From: Spiroplasma endosymbiont of Atherix ibis
GTDB lineage: Bacteria; Bacillota_I; Bacilli_A; Mycoplasmatales; Mycoplasmataceae
Direction of reading: 5' to 3'
Length of the DNA stretch: 64,000 nt
Assembly: GCF_964020005.1 (NCBI RefSeq)
Contig: NZ_OZ026474.1
Span: 682,001 to 746,000 of the forward strand
Both the position numbers and the translations under genes were made by a program. The first letter of the stretch is position 1; the number at the start of each line of letters is the position of its first letter. The notes below the pieces were generated by a model. That model did no database searches, was not told where the DNA came from, and was given only the letters and a program-made list of their open reading frames with translations. Positions 30,022-41,542 of this stretch are shown here, piece by piece.

Positions 30022-30081
30022 ATTTTCCTCCTTTTTTAAGACTTTTATAAAACAAACAAATAATTCAAGTTGATATGTATG

Positions 30082-30107
30082 ATTGTAAAAAAAAAAAAAA
30101 AAGTCAA
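30082..30107 (-). promoter_or_regulatory. Homopolymer-spacer promoter of lipoprotein module 3
   Basis: Minus strand: TTGACT (30107-30102), T16 run, TACAAT (30087-30082). Spacing 14 nt, all T. Located 61-86 nt upstream of the lipoprotein ATG and 35 nt from the IS left end. Confidence 0.62.
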
Positions 30108-30197
30108 TGCTTTAAACCCGGAAAAATAAATTACCTTCCCCGAAGGTTCCCCCATTTTAGGAGACACTTTTATATAATAATAGAAAGGAAAAAATAT

Positions 30198-30527
30198 ATG
30201 GCTAAAAAAGGACAAAAGTTTAGAAAATGAACTCAAGAAGAAAAAGAAAAAATTATTGAATTAAGTTTGAATTGCTATTCTCTAAAAGAAATAGCATTAA
30301 AATTTAACTCAACTACTGGATCAATTGGAACAATAATTAACAAATATAAAAATGCAAAGATAAGTGAAGCAAAACCTCGCTTGCCTTATAAAATAGATTA
30401 CAGCATATCTAAAAAGGCAAATGATTTGTTTATAGGAGTTCTATTCTACTATAATAAAGAATTAATTAAGGAGAATAATATTTTAAAAAAGCAATGAGCC
30501 TCCAAGGGCGAAACCAAAAAGAAATAA
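30198..30527 (+). CDS. IS3-family transposase OrfA (copy 4)
   Basis: 109 residues, nearly identical to the 10549-10878 protein; a visible change is LFDYN to LFYYN (G>T). The frameshift heptamer A_AAA_AAG before the overlap is kept. The HTH is intact, so it could still bind IS ends and act as a repressor of intact copies, although no transposase can be made from this element. Confidence 0.88.
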
Positions 30528-31348
30528 TTCAGGAATTATTAATAAATATGAAATATAATCGAACAATAATTTGCAAAATTTTAAATATCAATAGAACATC
30601 AACATATAAAGAAAATAAAACTTTAATGAATTTCCTCAATGATACAAGAATTATGAATTTAGTGATTTCAGAAATTGAAAAAAATAATTTTCTTAGTGCT
30701 TATAGTGCTAAAAGATGATCTTTATATTTTAAATTGAATTATATTGACCATTTTAGGATAAATCACAAAAAATTAGAACGTATATTTAAAAAATTTAATC
30801 ATATTGCATATTATATTAAGAAACAAACTAAACATGAAATTAAAAAATATAAAGAAACTATTAGAAAAAATTATCTTAAAGAAGCAAAATAAATGGTATT
30901 TGAAAACATTTGAACTAGTGAAATAACTCAATTTTCAGTTAAAACAAAAAAAGGTTATATTTGCACAGTTCAAGATAATTTAACTGGAGAAATAATAGGA
31001 AAATCTAAAAGAATAGATAATCAAAAGACAGATTTTGTACTTGAAGCTGTAAAAATTGCATATAAAAATAAAAAATATTTAGGTCCAATATTATTACATT
31101 CAGATAATGGAAATCAATATACTTCTGAAAACTACATAAATTTATGTAATGATTTGCAAATCATTAGAAGTTATTCAAAACCAGGAACACCTAATCATAA
31201 TGGCAAGCATGAAAGTTTTCATAGTCGTTTAAAAGATGAAACTATAAGAACATGTCATATTGAAAACATCAATCAATGCTTAAAAATAGCATGAGCATGA
31301 TTAGATTTTTATAATAATGATAAAATTAGAATAAATAAAAAATGATAA
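30494..31348 (+). pseudogene. IS3-family transposase OrfB, nonsense copy 4
   Basis: TAA at 30890-30892 replaces a GAA of copy 2 (KEAKE). Just after it GGA is GTA, and the first catalytic Asp in TSDITQ has become Glu (GAC to GAA). The second Asp and the Glu remain. The frame then runs to TAA 31346-31348. Confidence 0.9.
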
Positions 31349-31533: not shown

Positions 31534-32865
31534 ATGGATGACAAACAATATAAACAATATTTATTAGAAATATATGAAATAGCTCAAAAAGCTAAAGGAA
31601 AAACTTTAAGAGAACTTGCAAATAAAAATATTGATAAAATAAGATATTTTGACAATAAAGATAAAGTAAAACATTTTCTTCAACAAGCAATATTTAATAT
31701 GCCTCTATTAAGTAAAGTAGAATATACTTTTGAAGATCTTCAATTAGAATTAAAGCCAGTTGCTTTAAAAAGAAATAAATATGATGAATTAATAGTAAAA
31801 GAGCGTTTACTTTTAAATGATATTTACTATGATGAAATAGTAAATGAAATATTTAAAGATTCGAAATGTATTAATAGAAATCAATTACTTTTAATCATAA
31901 CTTATATTTATGATTACGAAAAAGATTTTTTGGATTTTAAAATTCATGATGCTTTTATAATAGATATTTCTAGACAAAAAGAATTTTTATTAATAGTAAA
32001 TGACTGAATTGCTATTCAAGAGAAAGTAAAAAAAGGAAAAGCAGAAGAATTAAATGAAGGATTTACAAAAATTCTTTGCTCTTCAACTAAAAGTCAAAGT
32101 AGAATTGATTTAAAAAAACAGCCCTATTCAAATGTACTTGCAAGATTTAGAAGTTATTCATTTAATATTAATTTTTTAAAAGAAATTATTTCAAGGCACA
32201 AAAATAAAGTTGAATATATTAATGAAATTTTTGAAGAAAAAGAAATAAAAGATATTGTTGAATTTAAACATGAACAAATTGAAGAATATATGACAAGTAT
32301 AATTGGAAAAGATATTTCAAATTATACACAATCAAAAGCAAACCAAAAACATCAAATTGCTTTTGAAAAATTTTTAAAAGAGAATAATCGTGATTTATAT
32401 AATTTTTTAAAAATTACAAATTTTAAATTAATACATAAGTTAACTCAAAACAGTAATTTACAAGAACAAATTACAACCAATTATGAATTAGACCCTTTTG
32501 AAATAATGAATGATGAATTTGAAGAAAGTACATTTTATCAAGATATAATATTAAAAAATTATTTAGTAATTATGATTGAAAAAGATACTAATAAAATACT
32601 AAACTTTAAACTATTTAATTTAAATGAACAAGATATAAAAAATGCTCAATTAGTTTTTTATAATACTAGAAAAGAAATTGAAAAATTAATCAAAGAAAAT
32701 AAATTAAATAAAGAAGAGCCTAATTTTGTAAAAACAAAAGATAATCTATCAATTAGTTTAAGAAAAAGTAAAAAAAATGAATATGCAACTTATAAAGTCA
32801 ACGAAAAAGATTTTAAGCTTCCTGCATATGAATTTATAATTAACAAAAATGTAATTTTTAAATAA
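31534..32865 (+). CDS. Sau3AI/MutH-family restriction endonuclease
   Basis: 443 residues with one TGA-Trp. The N-terminal KGKTLRELA is the MutH/Sau3AI signature helix, followed by LELKPVALKR (E-x-K of the catalytic D-ExK core), KERLLLNDIYYDEI, and the second conserved block GKAEELNEGFTKIL...KKQPYSNVLARFRSYSF, as in Sau3AI. The C-terminal half resembles the second, regulatory MutH-like domain. Sau3AI cuts before GATC; the specificity here is inferred. ATG 31534 follows AAAGGAAA. Intact. A cytosine methyltransferase lies at 37194-38447 on the other strand. The first catalytic acid is not obvious. Confidence 0.82.
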
Positions 32866-32897
32866 AAAAATCTCTATTTTAAAATAGAGATTTTTTT
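32864..32897. terminator. Bidirectional terminator between Sau3AI-like gene and spiralin-like gene
   Basis: A 34-bp perfect palindrome with A7 and T7 ends (core TCTCTATTTT/AAAATAGAGA). It overlaps the last bases of the restriction gene stop and serves both convergent genes. Confidence 0.88.
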
Positions 32898-32923
32898 ATT
32901 ATTAATAATTGAAAATTAATAAA

Positions 32924-33787
32924 CTATGATCTAGCAATTACTAAATCTAATTTACCTGAAACTAATGTTGAAGTTACAACTGCTTCGATTACAATTGATC
33001 CATCTAATGATGTACCAGCATTTATTTTAGTAATTTTAACATCTGTTGTTAATGCTACTTCTTCAAGTCCTTTAACTGTTTTTAAAGCCCTAATAACTTC
33101 ATCAACTGTTGTATCATTTGTTGGAGTTAATAAATTTTTAACTGTTGATAAATCAACTTTTACTAATTGATCAATTTCAAAAGTTTTTGAAGCTTCAACT
33201 AATGTTGAAGTTCCAACTGCTTCGATTTTAATTGATCCTTTTGCACTTAAAGTAGCATTTGTTTTAGTAATTTTAACATCTATTTTTTCTACTACTTTTT
33301 CAAGTCCTTTAAATTTTTTTAAAGCTGCAATTACTTCTGCATTTGTTGTAGAATTTGTTGCTGTTAATTTAAAATCAGCTGTATCTAATTTAATTTTTCC
33401 TGTAGATGCTTTTTTAGCTTCAATTTTAACTGAAACTGATGAAACTGTTTCTTCACTTTTAGTTGAATCTTTAACTTTATGAATAACATCAACTGTTTCT
33501 TTAACTTCTTTATCTTTTACTTTATCTGCTGTAGTTGAAACTACAATAATTACTTCTCCTGCTTTTTGTGAACCAGCTTTAACTTCTACATTTAAAACTG
33601 AATCTTTAGCTAGTTTGAAAGTAATTGTTCCATCAGCTGTAATTTTACTTGTTTTAACTGAAAATTCTTTTGATAAATTAGTTTCACTTAAAGTAACATC
33701 ACTTGCTTTGTTTCCACAAGCAACAACTGTTGCACTTGTAGTTGCAACTAATCCTGCTGCACCTAATAATCCTAATAATTTTTTCAT
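32924..33787 (-). CDS. Spiralin-like surface lipoprotein
   Basis: 287 residues. Signal peptide MKKLLGLLGAAGLVATTSAT with lipobox VVACG; ATG 33787 after GGAGGAAAAAA. The Thr/Ser/Val/Lys-rich mature part lacks Trp and Cys. It holds two related segments of about 80 residues: KKFKGLEKVVEKIDVKITK...GSIKIEAVGTSTLV and KTVKGLEEVALTTDVKITK...GSIVIEAVVTSTLV, like repeats in spiralin proteins. Probably an abundant surface antigen. GC is higher than neighbours, typical of highly expressed genes. Intact. An A16 run (33921-33936) lies 134 nt upstream. Confidence 0.82.
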   Translation of the reverse strand: MKKLLGLLGAAGLVATTSATVVACGNKASDVTLSETNLSKEFSVKTSKITADGTITFKLAKDSVLNVEVKAGSQKAGEVIIVVSTTADKVKDKEVKETVDVIHKVKDSTKSEETVSSVSVKIEAKKASTGKIKLDTADFKLTATNSTTNAEVIAALKKFKGLEKVVEKIDVKITKTNATLSAKGSIKIEAVGTSTLVEASKTFEIDQLVKVDLSTVKNLLTPTNDTTVDEVIRALKTVKGLEEVALTTDVKITKINAGTSLDGSIVIEAVVTSTLVSGKLDLVIARS

Positions 33788-34038
33788 TATTTTTTTCCTC
33801 CATAATTTGCCCGACTAACACAATCAAGCTTAATATAATTATAAATTTAAAGTTTCTTGTTTTTTAAAATATATTAAAAGTAAAAATATTTTATAATAAT
33901 AAAATTTTTTTTTTGATTTGAAAAAAAAAAAAAAAACTGTTTTATTAATATATAATATATTGATTAATTTTCTATTTTCTCTTCTAGAATTTCAACTTGT
34001 TCTTCTAAAACTTCTACATTTTCTTCTAATTTTTCAAT

Positions 34039-34455
34039 TTATTTTTGCATATTAATTATTTCTTCACTTAAAAGCTCATTTTCATTTTGTATTTCTGTTA
34101 CTGAAATTTCTTCTAAATTTTCATTTATTTTTTTATCTTTTTTTAATCTATTTAAAGTAATTTTGTCTTTAACTTTATTACATATAATAAAGATTAAAAT
34201 AAATAATGATGCACCCATTACAGCTAAATTTGCACACCCTACTTGTAAGTCTGGTGTTTCTTTTGTAAAAAATGCATAACTTGTTCATATACATGAATTT
34301 AAAAAAGTTAAAAAGAACATTATTGGGGAAAGTGCTTTAGTATTTTTTGTAATACAAACTTTAATAACTTGAGGCATTAACATTGAAAAGCTTGTTGCAA
34401 ATCCAATTCATCCAAGAATTAAACTAGCCATTTCTTTACTTTGTGATGAAAGCAA
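34039..34455 (-). CDS. SemiSWEET/PQ-loop membrane protein with coiled-coil tail
   Basis: 138 residues to TAA 34039. Three helices with the PQ-loop MPQVIKVCITKNTKALS, the layout of SemiSWEET sugar transporters, which dimerise to form a pore. The start is TTG 34455 or ATG 34431. The cytoplasmic tail is acidic and heptad-rich. Past the TAA the same frame continues 24 codons (IEKLEENVEVLEEQVEILEEK) to TAA 33964, so the stop may be a recent nonsense truncating only the coiled coil. Core helices intact. Confidence 0.78.
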
Positions 34456-34469
34456 TAAAATAATAAAAC

Positions 34470-34510
34470 CCCCTTTAACTTTTTTATAATAACAAATAAG
34501 TTAAAGTGGG
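34470..34510 (-). terminator. Hairpin between GmrSD-like gene and SemiSWEET
   Basis: AAGTTAAAG(T)GGG pairs with CCC CTTTAACTT around a 16-nt loop with one bulge. On the minus strand it is followed by TTTTATTATTTT. It may end the defence operon. Its GGGGG 3' arm is also the only ribosome-site-like sequence for the SemiSWEET start, so the structure could limit its translation. Confidence 0.6.
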
Positions 34511-34596
34511 TCAAATTATAATGTTTAATGATTGAATAAAAAAATAATAAATAATTATAAAATAAATTAAAATTTTATAAATGTGAATTATCAAAT

Positions 34597-37194
34597 TTAA
34601 TTATCTTTTCAAATATCACAACAAATTTTTGTTAATTGTTTAGTTCTTTTTTTGATATTATCTTCATAAAAATTATTAAAACTTCTTAAACCTGTTAATT
34701 CTAAAAATTCATCTTTATAACCTTTAAACTGATATGAATTAAGAATTTTTCCTTCTTTTGAATATTCATAAATTTTATTATTAAAAGTTTTATTTTGAAT
34801 TTTAGAGTTTGATTTACCTTCAATACACATTAAATTACCTAATTTATTTAAAAACTTAGTTTTTCATCTCTTTGCTTCTTCTAATGTTAATTCATGATCA
34901 CTTCATACAATTATATCTTGATATCACTCTTCATTAGGTTTTTGAGGAATTATATGTTCAAGCGTTCTTTTTTCATATTTTGTATCAATATAATTATAAT
35001 CATCTCCAAATAAGTTCTTATTATTAGATAAATAATTCTCTATTCTATATCCTATAAGAGTTGCTATTTTATTTGATATATCATATTCCATTAAACTATT
35101 TTTAAATCTTTCTAAAGAAATTCTATTATTTAATTCATCTTCATGTTCTCCTATAAATAATTTTCTTATAAAATCAGGAGTTATAATTCCATTTCCTAGC
35201 TCTTTTAAGATATTAAGATCAATATATTGAGAAAGGGATTGACCTTTATAATTGGAAACTTGAAGTCGTACTTCATATTTTTCTATTTCAAAAAAAACTT
35301 TTCTTATTTGTTTTGTAATTTCTTTATTTGTTTTATTGTTTTCATAATCAAAGTTTATTAAAATTTTCATTAATAGAGGATAATAAATTTCTCTACCTTC
35401 TAACATGGTTAAAATATCTTTAAATCTATATGTTAAATATTCTAATTTATTAAATGAATTAGAATCTGAAACAGAAATATACATATATATGTATTTACCT
35501 AAATCTATAAATAGTTTTCTAGATTCTTCAAAAGATTTTAAATTTCTATTATTAATAAAATCAGAAATTAAGGTTTCTTTAAAACTTTCAAAAGCTGAAT
35601 CAGCTTCATATTTTTTTTCTTTCAATCTTAAAAATACATTTATAAAACTATCCATTTTTGATGTAGGATTTTTAAAATTTTTAAATTTTGAAATAATTTC
35701 TTCTTCAAAAGTAAATTGTAACTGTTGTTCGTGTTTATCAACTATTTGATGATTTATATGCATAAACAAAAAATTTTTTATTAAATCCATAGTAGAAAGT
35801 TGTAAAGATTTAGTATTCAAATTTTCAAATAAAGTATATTCGTTTGAAATATGGTCTATAGTAACAGAGAGAATTAATTGTTCATAAATTTTTTTAAAAA
35901 AACTATTTAAATTGTTTTCATCAAAATTTCTAATCATATTAAAAACTGCAATTGAATTTGTAAATACTGAAGTTGTGGTTTCTTGAATTTGTTCACCTTT
36001 TATAATGTTGTTAAATGTTCTAAAATCACTGTTAGTATCTATTCTTTTAAAGGTCTTTGATATTGCATTTTCATCATATTGATCAAGATTAAATAAATTA
36101 TATAAAATATCGGGTATTTTATAATCCTTTATCAAATATACATTATATATTTGTCTTAAAATTATTAAACAAGTTGTTAATCTTTGTTGTCCATCAATTA
36201 ATTTATTGTTTAATCTATCTCTAAATGAAATAAATAATACAATACCTCCAATATAATGATATTTTCCAGAATCTAAATTTAAAATATCATTTAAAAGGCC
36301 TATTGCAAGTTTCTGATCTCAATTATATTGCCTTTGATAAATAGGAATTGCAATTTTTGAATTATCACCAGTTTTTAAAAAATAATGATTTATAAACTCT
36401 CCAAAAGAATAATTCTTTGAATAAATTAACTCTTCACCACTTCAATTCATAGGTAAATTTATAATATTTTCTTTACTAACTTTAAACCTTTTAAAATTAT
36501 CATAAATAAACATATTTTCTACATCATTGATTTTGTAATAATCAATTCACTCTTTTTCAAAAATATACTTATAACAGGCTTGAATTATTTTTTTATTATC
36601 ATAAATTCCTTTTACTTTATATGTTGTTAGCAATCTTTTAAGAGATTCATTATTTTTTATATCATCTAAATTATCAACTAAAAAATCTGCCTTATTATCA
36701 CATTTAGAAATAGCTTTATTAATTGTATTTTTTATCTTTTAATCAATATCATCATAAGTTAATTCATTTTGTATTAATGTAGCAATAGAAAATCCATTAT
36801 AAAAAGTGTGTTCATTTTTAAAACTGTATTCAGTATAACCATTTAGTCTTTTTTCAATAATTTCTCTTGCTTGTTTTTCTAAATCTTCGTCAAAACCATA
36901 TTCAACAATAAAATCATATTCAAAAAAAGTATCTAGTTTTTCAATGAATTCAGCATTTTTTAATTTAATAAATCCTAATGTACATCAAACTCTTAAAATT
37001 TGTACAAATGTACTTCTATCTCCTTTTTTAATTATATTAATATCTTTTTTATTTATTTTAACTTTTAATTCTTTTCCTGATGGAGTAAGAGAAAAATTTA
37101 AAATATCTCCTTTTTTAAAACAATTAGTTTTTATATAATCTTTTATATAAATATTAAAATTTGTTGCAATATTTCATGCGTTTCCTGATCTCAT
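34597..37194 (-). pseudogene. GmrSD-like DUF262/DUF1524 restriction protein with one nonsense codon
   Basis: 866 codons in one frame from ATG 37194. Residues 1-151 are an extra N-terminal domain, then TAA at 36741. In frame beyond it come the DUF262 motifs IPIYQRQYNW and LIDGQQRLTT (a ParB-like nucleotide-binding fold) and, near the C terminus, the DUF1524 HNH-like motif LEHIIPQ...LGNLMCIEG...NKTFNNKI. GmrSD proteins cleave glucosylated-hydroxymethylcytosine phage DNA. ATG overlaps the methyltransferase stop (TAATG), so the two are coupled. The nonsense codon is probably an old GAA. Internal restart cannot be excluded. Confidence 0.85.
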
Positions 37195-38447
37195 TATTTT
37201 TTTCCTTCTTTCATCATATTATTAAAAAGAGCTACCAATACATTTACTGCAATTGAATTTCCTGCTTGCCTATAAAGTATTTCTTTTCTTTTATTAAAGA
37301 CTGTAACCTTTTCAAAATCATCTTCTGTAAATCCCATTAATAAAAAAGTCTCTCTAGGAGTTAAAAATCTATAATTGGATTTACCCGTTTTTTCTAATTC
37401 TTTTATTATTTCTGTCTCCTTGAGAACAACAATACCTGCATTAGGGTGTCTATCTTGTTTTATTGTAATAGTTCTTACAAAACTAAGATATCTATGCTCT
37501 CCTTTTATAATTTGAAATATTTTAGGATTTTCTTTATACATTTTTCTTCTACTCGGTGTATTATTTGGCGAACAAATTTTAGCTTCATTTTTATATTTTT
37601 GTATTGAATAATTTATTTTTAAAATTTTTTTTAGTTGTTTATTAATTTTAAATTCTTTAGATACATCTTCAATATCATCTGAATCATTTATGAAATTTTC
37701 TATATCTAATAAAATTTCTTCATTTTTTAATATACTAATTGCAAATACTCTTTTTCTTTTTTGTGGTATTCCATATTTACTAGCATCTAATATATAAGTT
37801 TTTGTTTCATAACCTAAAAAAGCTAAAAACTCTAATCATTCAATATAATCATCTTTATGTTTATTAGATATCATATTTTTAACATTTTCCAATAATAAAT
37901 ATTTAGGTAATTTATTAAGTTTTTTTAATTCTTTAAGTATTCTTTCAATTTCTCATAGTAAACCACTTCTAGTATTAGACCCTTTTGCCATTCCTTGATT
38001 AAAACCATGAAAACTTCCTGCAACAGATAAATCTTGACAAGGAAAAGAATAAGTTAATAAATCAAACTCTCCAATATTATTAATAAGTGTTTTTCCAGTT
38101 ATTTCTAAAATACTTCCTTGATTATTGCAATTGATTAAAGAGCTATATAATAACTCTCTAACTTTTCTAGGTTGTCTTAATATAAATTTTTCATAAGCTG
38201 GTTTTTTTCCATCATTTGAAAGAGTATATTTTGCAATAAAGTTATTAATTTCATCATCGCCTAGCTTTTCTGCTATATTTTTATTATTATGATGTATAGC
38301 ATTATAACTTAAATTTGCTCAAATATCTCATTCACTTGTTCCAGCTATTTTATAGTCAAAACCCTCTACATTTTCTTTAAGTATTTCTAATGCTTTATGT
38401 TGTGCTCCAATACCAGCAAATGTTTCAAATACTCTTAATTTACTCAT
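37194..38447 (-). CDS. DNA (cytosine-5) methyltransferase
   Basis: 417 residues, uninterrupted. Motif I FETFAGIGA (7-15), motif IV PCQDLS with the catalytic Cys about 137, motif VI LLLENVKN, motif VIII QKRKRVF, a variable target-recognition region (about 240-330), motif IX-like RFLTPRE and motif X QAGNSIAVNV. Three TGA-Trp codons near the start. Modifies a specific DNA sequence; the target is not readable, but pairing with the Sau3AI-like enzyme would make GATC plausible. It is between the PLD-helicase and the GmrSD-like gene. No good ribosome site; a poly-A promoter-like element lies upstream. Confidence 0.93.
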
Positions 38448-38470
38448 AAAAAAATACCCCGCTAAGAGTA

Positions 38471-38497
38471 ATTTTAATTTTTTTTTTTTTTTTACAA
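38471..38497 (-). promoter_or_regulatory. Poly-A spacer promoter candidate of the methyltransferase
   Basis: Minus strand: TTGTAA (38497-38492), then the rest of an A16 run, then TAAAAT (38476-38471). Spacing 15 nt. It sits 24-50 nt upstream of the methyltransferase ATG and just past the helicase stop. The -35 is a weak match, so this is tentative. Confidence 0.4.
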
Positions 38498-38505
38498 GAG
38501 GTTAA

Positions 38506-41500
38506 CTAATTAATTTTAAAAATAAATTTTGGTTTTTTATGAATTTTTTTCTCAGATCCATTTTTAACTTCTTTTCTATCTATTATTTTTTCAATTTTTT
38601 CAATAAAAATTTTTGCCTTATCTCCCTTTTCACTTCTAAGTTTTTCATCTGAAAAGAAAATATAAGTTTTATATTCTTTTAAATTCATCATATTTTTTTG
38701 CACTTCTGTAATTTTATTTAAATCAAATTTTCAATCGTCTGGAGTATCTCAATATAAAATTTGCTTTTCATAATCATAAATATTACCATGTCCAAACTTT
38801 GTTGAAATTGTATTGGTTGAAGCATCAATTGCAAAAATTTTATCTTCTTTATTACTAATAATTCCCCCTACACCTTTACCTTTAAATTGATTATCTTTTA
38901 TTGTAATAGAACATAATGCTTGAAATTGATTATGATTTAAATGCAAACCTTTAAAACTTTCAATTTCATTATTTAAAATTTTTTTTAATAATTTCTCATT
39001 ATTTAATTTAAATTTTAATAAGAAAGTAATTTCTTTTAAAAGAATCTCATTTTCAGGATTAAAAATAGATTTAAAAGCAAAATTTAAATCATAGTAAAAA
39101 TTATCTTTTTTTGTTGGTGAATAATAAAAAGAAGCTAAAAATACTTTGTTTACAAGTTTATTATTTGAAATTTTTTTATTCTCTATTATTTTTAAAATTT
39201 CTTTAATTAAATTTTCATTATTAAAGAAAATAAATTGACGAATTCGTGTTGGATTATTAGCTATTTGATTTTCTTTAAAATATGTTTTTTCAAGATTATA
39301 AAATTCATAGATACTAACTTCTTTATCTTTAAAAAATGATTCATAATCTTCAAATATTCCAGTTCTATATTCATCAATAATTGCTACATATAAATTATGT
39401 TTTTCATACTCTTTAAGTTTTTTCAAGAAATCTTCTTTAATAAATTTTGAAAGTATAAAATTACAATCTCCTGGTAAAAAGTTATTAATATGATCTATAT
39501 TTTTTTCAAATTCACTTATTTTTAAGTCACTTGTAAGAACATTAAAAGCCATTAAAGGATTATATTTTTTATTTACTTTAATATCAACATTATTTACAAA
39601 ATCATATATTTGTAATCTTTTATCAGTAACTTTTATCAATCCTCTACCAAGCTGTTGCAAATAAATTAAAATAGAAGCAGTTGGTCTTAAAAACATTACA
39701 GTATCTATTTCAGGAACATCCACACCTTCATTTAAAATATCTCTTACACAAAGAAAATTTATTTTTCCACTTTTAAAGTCTCTTAATATTTTTTGTCTTT
39801 TTTCTTTTGTAATTTTTTCAGAAACTAAAAATTCGCTTCTTTCTCCCTTTTCATTTAAGTATTGTGATAAATCTTGTGCATGTTATATTGAATTACAAAA
39901 TAATATAGCTTTAATATTTCTAGAATTTGTACCTATATATTTTTTTATGATTTTCATAAATGAATTCATGTCTCTCTTTAATATTTAAAACTTTATTTAA
40001 TTTTTCAGTTTTCAAAATATCTATATTTGTTAAATCAATTGAATCATCTTTTATAAAAAAATAATCAAAATCACTTAATAATTCTTTTTCAATAGCTTCA
40101 AGTAATCTTAAATTTGCTGCGTATTAATCATCAAAATAAATATTTACATTTACATTATCAGTTCTTTCTGGAGTTGCAGTTAATCCAAATATTTGTTTAG
40201 TGTTTGGAAGTACTAATAAATATATTTCTTTAAATGTATCTGCTTCAACGTGGTGTGCTTCATCAAAAACTACAACATCAAATTTCTTATTTATTAGCTT
40301 TTCTTTTCTTCTTATTAAAGTTTCTGTATTTGTAAATATTCAATTTTCTTTTAATATATCAACATTATTATTTCTACTATCATAAAATTCCAAGCCAAAA
40401 TCATAAATTTCAAGATAATCTCTAAAATCTTTAACAGTTTGATCAAGTATTTCTTTTGAAGGAGCTATATACAATAAACTTGGTTCTTCTTTTTTTCAAA
40501 GATTTGCAAGAGCCTCATATGTAAAAATCATGGTTTTAGTTTTACCTGTTCCTGTAGCCATGACAAGTAAGTGTTTATTTTTTCCATTATTCACTCTATT
40601 TAAAATATTTTCTACAATGTCTTTTTGATAAGTATATGGATCTATTCCTTTATTTTTTGTATTTAATCTTTCAAACTGAATTGACATATTTTCTTCATTT
40701 TCTAATATAGAAACATTAATTTCTTCTAATTTATTATTTTCTAATTTTTGATGCATTATTATTTGTTGAATCTGTTCATTATCTTTTATATCAATTAAAT
40801 CACTTGATTTAAACAAGTCATCAAATTCTTTTCTATATTCTTCAATAATTTTTTTATCTTTAAATTCACTAATTCTTAAGTTATGTTCTTTTCCAGTTAC
40901 TAAACCTGTTTTTGTAAAATTACTACTTCCAACATATAAAGAACTAAAGTCATTTTCTCTATTAAATAAATAAGATTTTATATGTAATCTTTTTTCACTT
41001 TTTTTAAATATATTTTCTATTTTAACTTGAATTATATTACTATAGTCATTAACTAGTTTTATTAAATCTTCTAAAGCTAAAAATTTTGAAGTACCATCAT
41101 ATGTTGTTGCTATTATTTTTAAGGATTTTATGCTTGAATTATTTTCTAAACTATTTCTTAATATATTTATCATATGATTTGAAATAAAAGGCGAAATTAT
41201 TTGAATATCATTTGATGTTTCAAATTCCTTATTTAAATTAGATCATAAATTCTTTTTAATAAGTTTATTTGTACTTATCTCTTCTAATCTATTAATTTTA
41301 ACCTCTTTCTTTACTGCTCTTAATGAAGTTCACTTATCTTCCTTTATTAAATTATTTAAAAATATTATTTTATCTTCTATTGTATTAAAATTAGATAAAT
41401 TTTCTTTAATATGTCTAGAAAATTGATTTGCTAATCATTCATCATCAATATTTTCTAATTCTCTAATATCATCTTCTTGAAAAAATGGTAGTTATTTTTC

Positions 41501-41542
41501 TCTAATTAAAAGATCATATATTCCCTTTTTAAATTTTTCCAT
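38506..41542 (-). pseudogene. PLD-nuclease/DEAD-box helicase (DUF3427-like) defence protein, broken
   Basis: About 1013 codons. Residues 120-220 hold a phospholipase-D nuclease motif (LHIKSYLF...YVGSSNFTKTGL). Then an SF2 helicase with Walker A MATGTGKTKT, DEAH box VVFDEAHH, motif III GLTATPERTD, and motif VI LQQLGRGLIK (normally GRGLR). A long C-terminal region of the DUF3427 type follows. Broken by TAA at 41494, 40126 and 39885 and by a two-base loss in GAGAGA near 39970. The stops fall where Glu is expected (for example FCNSI-stop-HAQ). Such proteins accompany restriction systems. First gene of an operon with the methyltransferase and GmrSD-like protein. Confidence 0.85.

Follow-up and report, generated by a model that had tools for sequence, protein, structure and literature searches.

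Enzymes of the GmrSD family, in which a DUF262 and a DUF1524 domain are combined, are usually treated as Type IV restriction enzymes aimed at modified DNA, and the passages cited here from PMC4619093, PMC10952713 and PMC12707154 describe them as modification-dependent. In SauUSI, which joins a PLD nuclease to an SF2 helicase, the domain description in PMC7913695 assigns residues 618-805 to a coupler and residues 806-953 to an SRA methyl-reader. Here we analyse a window of 64,000 nucleotides (the whole stretch of DNA studied) from the genome of a Spiroplasma endosymbiont of Atherix ibis, which consists of a single contig of 1.07 Mb. In this window, a GmrSD reading frame directly follows the gene for a C5-cytosine DNA methyltransferase, downstream of a SauUSI-like PLD-helicase. 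As judged from gene order and domain composition, we think it rather likely that the pair belongs to a methylation-protected restriction-modification (R-M) system of Mollicutes in which GmrSD would serve as the nuclease and a shared N-terminal domain, hereafter the N-domain, as the target reader; we infer the activity and the target of this system from its anatomy.

Recurrence of the methyltransferase-GmrSD pair

Gene calls require code 4 (UGA=Trp); the in-frame UGA codons, a Spiralin domain and signal sequences of lipoproteins suit a Spiroplasma-like organism. All coordinates are those of the window. Under this code the minus strand carries the PLD-helicase, the methyltransferase and the GmrSD frame (37194 to 34597) in this order (Table 1), and the stop codon of the methyltransferase overlaps the start of the GmrSD frame by one base (TAATG), so that gene order, positions and overlap agree with an earlier note on this DNA. 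The same note had described an 866-codon DUF262/DUF1524 protein with an extra N-terminal domain. Both domains are indeed found above cut-off in one 866-codon frame (PF03235 with 91.5 bits, cut-off 33.2; PF07510 with 55.3 bits, cut-off 23), but the frame is not open, being interrupted at codon 152. In the methyltransferase, the catalytic motifs PCQ and ENV are invariant among 16 homologs.

Occurrence of these genes was surveyed across the order in 298 genomes, of which 53 have matches to the GmrSD protein and 246 to the C-terminal half of the helicase, most of the latter being read as general helicases from their low scores. Twenty genome contexts were fetched that had been picked for GmrSD or helicase matches. 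In 11 of these (L062-L072) helicase, methyltransferase and GmrSD occur together, full-length, on the same strand and in the same order; four (L078-L081) have methyltransferase and GmrSD with no adjacent helicase, and five (L073-L077) a helicase without the pair, one copy being broken. The earlier note had proposed a search for the same three-gene order, had expected intact versions elsewhere and had named as its refutation that the genes never co-occur. With full-length sets in 11 other genomes and the pair at most methyltransferase loci (see below), they clearly do co-occur, and the same order in 11 further genomes places the gene set beyond chance.

An independent search with a methyltransferase profile yielded 81 places in 76 of the 298 genomes. 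The resulting census of 74 loci excludes five of these places (G223, G253, G281, G093 and the second G254 site), the window's own locus and one truncated open reading frame (ORF; L242, 164 bits). A same-strand GmrSD is located at most 1.5 kb from the methyltransferase at 58 of the 74 loci, and the linked fraction depends on the methyltransferase score (19/21 at 500 bits or more, 37/45 at 270-500 and 2/8 below 270). These loci span four families of the order, many of the linked gene pairs overlap, by 7-34 bases, and 47 of the 58 have no adjacent helicase. PF03235 is present in 161/298 genomes, mostly in one or a few copies each; we therefore reason, without a formal probability, that the abundance of this gene does not account for the adjacency. 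Among the methyltransferase loci outside Mollicutes, just two have a GmrSD profile match close by, L106 on the opposite strand and L121 with 24 bits. In six such loci (L094, L097, L102, L106, L121 and L128) the related methyltransferases come after a recurrent protein of about 684-756 aa, itself preceded in five of the six by a protein of about 303-310 aa; the larger protein is perhaps another restriction partner.

The N-domain and its other partners

In the window-type GmrSD, the region before DUF262 starts with W-N-I-A-T-N. Most linked GmrSDs of a second tier start with W-x-I-G-T-[NSD] and have an S-T-x-x-Q stretch further along; fused or separate, the N-domain measures roughly 100-200 residues. 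If it is absent from GmrSD, it is encoded by a gene of its own (about 176-250 aa), either between methyltransferase and GmrSD or after GmrSD, such as the 176-193 aa genes ahead of shorter GmrSDs in L209, L216, L230, L239 and L241. Placed further inward, the DGQQR motif lies at residue 187-448 in linked GmrSDs (fused or extended) as compared to 66-95 in unlinked ones. By regular expression, the N-domain was counted in GmrSD itself at 31 of the 58 linked loci, in a separate gene at 16 and in neither at 11, in a count that misses domains plain by eye (L066, L210, L229, L246) and, the expression being short, can include chance matches (the own start of L065, upstream ORFs of L081 and L209). None of 19 unlinked GmrSD ORFs has the domain; these stem from 20 control loci taken mostly from the top of the PF03235 list, not at random, two of which gave no GmrSD ORF and one of which gave two. 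A neighbouring ORF matches the loose expression in two controls (L260, L266), and in a third (L273) one short ORF matches the HNH-endonuclease profile.

Profile comparisons support the relationship between these regions. In hmmsearch, a profile of 15 second-tier N-domains, none of them window-type, matches the protein of G109, the closest relative and sister of the window genome, at E 2e-11, together with accessory genes, and has no match in the unlinked loci. In hhalign, the second-tier profile reaches 98.2% with the window-type domain, 97.3% with the accessory family and 89.4% with the HNH proteins described below, and at most 0.63% with nine controls. Another round gave 95.9% for domain and accessory family, 98.8% for accessory family and HNH proteins and 74-87% for domain and HNH proteins, with 27 controls at 6.5% or below. 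The two genes of the between type (ACC2, L071 and L072) match more weakly, scoring 77% and 73% against the domain sets, 42% against the accessory family and 10% against the HNH set.

The same methyltransferase family also occurs in metagenome-assembled genomes of Ureaplasma and Mycoplasma (L087, L088, L100, L105, L136), where it is followed by proteins of 403-419 aa that start with the N-domain, the one in L136 being cut by its contig. An HNH_2 domain is located at the C-terminus in 4/4 full-length proteins scanned, and the single one scanned against NCBIfam exceeded the cut-off of NF045952, 'MAG4270 family putative restriction endonuclease'. The model of the L088 endonuclease (mean predicted local distance difference test, pLDDT, 83.7) has an HNH domain like that of VcaM4I (Z 11.2, root-mean-square deviation 2.7, 117 aligned). 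Thus, the extra N-terminal domain seen in the earlier note is real and informative, as it recurs in linked GmrSDs, accessory genes and HNH endonucleases and is missing from the unlinked GmrSDs examined. Through this domain, a single methyltransferase family is joined to different predicted nucleases, which is the pattern expected of a target-recognition module.

Several further observations concern these proteins. In L085 (11235-12515) the same methyltransferase family is followed by a third kind of partner, a 426-aa protein with a weak C-terminal match to NOV_C (PF13020, E 0.0035, below cut-off), the N-terminus of which resembles the N-domain by eye. In L225, N-domain and GmrSD form two ORFs (177 + 798 aa) that are fused (980 aa) in the relatives L218 and L222; this arrangement independently mirrors how the window's GmrSD frame is split. 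The GmrSDs of L065, L067-L072 and L078-L080, which have no fused N-domain, possess an N-terminal region that is helical and contains the motif R-x4-H (10/10; RN-x3-H in nine), which by eye we take to be of the kind found in HEPN domains. The predicted structure of the window N-domain alone has a mean pLDDT of 52, and the accessory family yielded no informative match in profile searches of the PDB. Two candidate relatives were dropped: DpdG, matched below cut-off by 3/17 members (best E 0.0012, 18.3 bits against 80) and by 0/8 accessory proteins, and Endonuc-MspI, matched by one protein at E 0.0059.

Lesions, helicase and the Sau3AI-like neighbour

The earlier note had proposed a three-gene operon. 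The gene order is real; however, the helicase is a pseudogene with three TAA stops and one frameshift, and only the methyltransferase is intact. Codon comparison with the uninterrupted G109 ortholog (1011 aa) places the stops of the helicase at 41494-41492, 40126-40124 and 39885-39883 and the frameshift at a poly-A run near 39941-39948; in tblastn, the two helicases share 81% and 85% identity in two frames. The GmrSD frame has a single TAA at codon 152 (36741-36739), which splits a 151-aa ORF from an ORF starting at TTG 36633. All four nonsense codons (41494, 40126, 39885, 36741) are TAA and correspond to Glu codons in G109 (GAG, GAA, GAG, GAA), due to either mutational bias or a small-number effect.

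Synonymous and non-synonymous changes on the window's own lineage were polarised with outgroups and compared to those of the sister by Fisher test. The methyltransferase has 15 synonymous and 6 non-synonymous changes in the window lineage and 28 and 10 in the sister (p 1.0). For GmrSD the numbers are 38 and 24 as compared to about 48 and 8 (p 0.0036), and the differences for the helicase and the Sau3AI-like gene are not significant (p 0.19 and 0.10). Constraint on GmrSD is relaxed in the window lineage and that on the methyltransferase is not. Together with the lesions in helicase and GmrSD this indicates decay of the nuclease side and retention of the methyltransferase in this strain.

The G109 helicase ortholog aligns to SauUSI (7clg) over residues 40-614, from the PLD domain through the ATPase (E 4.8e-53), where the alignment stops short of the full 953 residues; the PLD domain in the window matches RE_NgoFVII at E 1.5e-10. 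Neither SRA nor DUF3427 gave a Pfam match up to E 1 in two helicase orthologs. The helicase is a relative of SauUSI whose C-terminus either differs or cannot be recognised.

The earlier note had also described an intact Sau3AI/MutH-type enzyme convergent to the operon. Its frame is open and lies on the opposite strand, but the Asp expected seven residues before Glu72-x-Lys74 is replaced by Thr65. Thr occupies this catalytic column in the window genome (G000), G109, G057 and G103, as compared to Asp in G165, G168, G183 and Sau3AI (4pxg, aligned through L079), and with 157.2 bits the protein stays below the equivalog cut-off of 300 of NCBIfam NF040973. The gene is kept a few kilobases from the operon in relatives of the same genus (L062, L063, L068). 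In L078-L080, a Sau3AI-like gene near the operon has its own C5 methyltransferase beside or near it. The window genome encodes two C5 methyltransferases, neither of them an M.Sau3AI-like partner; the second was rejected for this role, as it shares 27-30% identity, over partial length, with three Sau3AI-adjacent methyltransferases that are 57-62% identical among themselves. A GATC nuclease that is active in the absence of a matching methyltransferase ought to kill its host; the Sau3AI-like protein is therefore probably not such a nuclease, an argument that would be weaker if the operon methyltransferase happened to mark GATC. Since the gene is conserved (dN/dS, the ratio of non-synonymous to synonymous rates, 0.11 against G109), another role is possible, and the family without the catalytic Asp (window and homologs in L062, L063 and L068) might comprise repurposed DNA-binding proteins. 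With the Asp lost, two genes in between and no M.Sau3AI-like partner, an active part of this gene in the operon's system is not supported; it is probably a neighbour and not a member of the operon. Just before it (30075-31348, plus strand) lies a transposase remnant in three frames, the last piece containing an rve integrase core (PF00665, E 1.4e-13).

Table 1. Features of the locus, by position in the window.
Feature	Coordinates	Strand	Evidence or remark
Sau3AI/MutH-like protein, 443 aa, frame open	31534..32865	+	PF02976 E 1e-19; 4pxg E 9.2e-20
Thr65 codon of Sau3AI-like gene, column of catalytic Asp	31726..31728	+	alignment with homologs
Spiralin-domain lipoprotein	32924-33787		between Sau3AI-like gene and operon
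PQ-loop protein	34039-34455		between Sau3AI-like gene and operon
Remainder of GmrSD frame (DUF262 + DUF1524), 678-aa ORF from TTG 36633	34597..36738	-	
DUF1524 / GmrSD_C (HNH) region, EHIIP motif	34627..35109	-	PF07510 E 8.3e-15
DUF262 / GmrSD_N region, DGQQR motif	35764..36363	-	PF03235 E 1e-25
N-domain, 151 aa, W7-N-I-A-T11-N ... Q65	36739..37194	-	ended by TAA 36741-36739
C5-cytosine DNA methyltransferase, 417 aa, intact, family A1	37194..38447	-	PF00145 E 5.6e-53; TIGR00675 over cut-off
PLD-nuclease + SF2 helicase (SauUSI-like) pseudogene	38506..41542	-	ATG 41542, own stop 38508-38506; Pfam ResIII, RE_NgoFVII, PLDc_2, Helicase_C

Proposed system, alternatives and relation to known systems

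In the system that we propose, the C5 methyltransferase would mark a short target on the host chromosome, and the N-domain, fused to GmrSD or encoded beside it, would recognise the same target when unmarked. The DUF262 half might then use NTP, as assumed from the family, and so permit the DUF1524 (HNH) half to cut. Within the window's own family, the upstream SauUSI-like PLD-helicase would often be added as a translocating second nuclease or partner; it is best read as an accessory of some members. In this strain, the system would be decaying in a safe order, with the nuclease lost first while the methyltransferase is still kept under constraint. DNA binding by the N-domain, its reading of the methyltransferase site, protection by methylation and the role of the helicase are all inferred from sequence. 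The earlier note had found the coupling of a GmrSD to a methyltransferase unexpected unless the GmrSD part spared self-modification. The coupling is real (58/74 loci); because the N-domain is common to linked GmrSDs and HNH endonucleases, we recast it and suggest that GmrSD does not merely spare self-modification but may form the restriction half of a methylation-protected pair. Whether the GmrSD family has been turned round more broadly, acting with a swappable recognition domain as an NTP-driven restriction half across Mollicutes, sometimes together with a SauUSI-like enzyme that was brought into the operon and whose methyl-reader is unrecognisable, appears to us an even bet.

Several points weigh against protection by methylation. 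Motif depletion gave no target when 80 kb from each of five genomes with and five without the methyltransferase were compared for the 63 palindromic patterns for which sufficient sites were expected; even at their largest (CTTAAG, TAGCTA), the differences were small and uneven, and GCNGC and GATC were not depleted. Within the window lineage alone, constraint on methyltransferase and GmrSD did not differ significantly (p 0.44). DNA binding by the N-domain is assumed, and the N-domain of the L088 model was matched at Z 2-3 only, partly by winged-helix chains, with no confident fold or solved relative. In the passages cited, modified DNA is the substrate of the better-studied GmrSDs, and SspE depends on its own modification (PMC10952713, PMC12707154); an order of loss that begins with the nuclease would also be compatible with an effector that is licensed or toxic. 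The main rival is methylation-licensed defence as in SspABCD-SspE, in which the N-domain would read host 5-methylcytosine and arm or switch on GmrSD against invading DNA. SspE is likewise a DUF262/DUF1524 protein and, according to the section cited from PMC9646914, relies on the host phosphorothioate mark; in the PDB, its chains rank among the top matches to the GmrSD set (E 1.5e-23), and a linked GmrSD is matched by SspE models at E 2.4e-20. We nevertheless regard licensing as unlikely, given that the N-domain is also present in type II-like HNH endonucleases that accompany the same methyltransferases, an arrangement that usually works by protection.

It is fairly improbable that the locus is merely a defence island of independent enzymes, in which a GmrSD and a SauUSI-like enzyme, both of Type IV, and a solitary methyltransferase would each be directed against foreign modified DNA. 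Characterised GmrSD and SauUSI enzymes are modification-dependent in the accounts cited, and this explanation is stronger for the helicase, found without the methyltransferase in 5/20 contexts (one copy broken) and absent next to the pair in 47/58, than for GmrSD. Against it stand the same-strand adjacency with overlapping genes and an N-domain seen in linked GmrSDs but in none of the 19 unlinked ones; moreover, an independent GmrSD cutting 5-methylcytosine would endanger its own host if encoded next to a C5 methyltransferase that is active. The high proportion of pairs lacking an adjacent helicase would also suit a distinctly improbable alternative, that the window GmrSD is split and not dead, with the 151-aa N-domain and the 678-aa remainder as two working proteins and only the helicase lost. 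The stop does fall at the end of the N-domain, and two-gene forms occur naturally (L209, L216, L230, L239, L241, and L225 in comparison to the fused L218 and L222). Yet the nearest ATG, GTG or TTG after the stop is a TTG 105 bases on and does not overlap in the way that genes of the natural two-gene forms do; constraint on GmrSD is relaxed (p 0.0036), and the helicase of the same operon carries four lesions.

The earlier note could not name the combination as a described system, and we found no paper describing a C5 methyltransferase-GmrSD restriction system in the open-licence PubMed Central (PMC) literature. The nearest account is the DCM5 locus of M. hominis, where a 979-aa DUF1524 protein likewise lies downstream of a C5 methyltransferase and the authors suggest a role in defence; by the description in the part cited of PMC10305163, the methyltransferase there is degenerate (253-256 aa) and the partner is not called GmrSD. 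The same source calls MAG4030 a DCM5 homolog, for which the cited passage of PMC9465063 reports no motif. If the linked forms restrict unmodified DNA, DUF262/DUF1524 would be a general NTP-gated cutting module that takes its target from an added domain, and some genes labelled 'GmrSD' or 'Type IV' in small-genome bacteria would be misannotated. This might explain mycoplasma C5 methyltransferases without an assigned partner or motif, with DCM5 and MAG4030 as candidates, and might point to a barrier to DNA uptake in organisms that are hard to transform.

With SauUSI, the locus shares a PLD nuclease and an SF2 helicase in one chain (in the G109 ortholog; a pseudogene in the window), but the coupler and SRA reader (618-953) have no match here, and the gene is placed in a methyltransferase operon. 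CglI and NgoAVII also bring together a C5-type methyltransferase, a PLD nuclease and a helicase; in the descriptions cited, however, PLD endonuclease and DEAD helicase are separate proteins there, and GmrSD is absent. GmrSD and BrxU of Type IV possess the same DUF262 and DUF1524 domains above cut-off, with DGQQR and EHxxP motifs, whereas the window form adds the N-domain before DUF262 and a C5 methyltransferase partner, the known members being described in the passages cited as cutting modified DNA. SspABCD-SspE likewise ties a DUF262/DUF1524 protein, similar in sequence (E 1.5e-23), to host modification. There the modification is phosphorothioation, a mark on which SspE relies in the cited account; here it is base methylation, and the N-domain is shared with HNH endonucleases. 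Finally, the type II-like R-M pairs of a MAG4270-family HNH endonuclease and a C5 methyltransferase have the same methyltransferase family and the same N-terminal domain, although the nuclease there is a single HNH domain without DUF262 and itself 'putative' in the curated model; the type II-like trait of an adjacent, putatively cognate methyltransferase is present, as adjacency, in 58/74 of the loci examined here.

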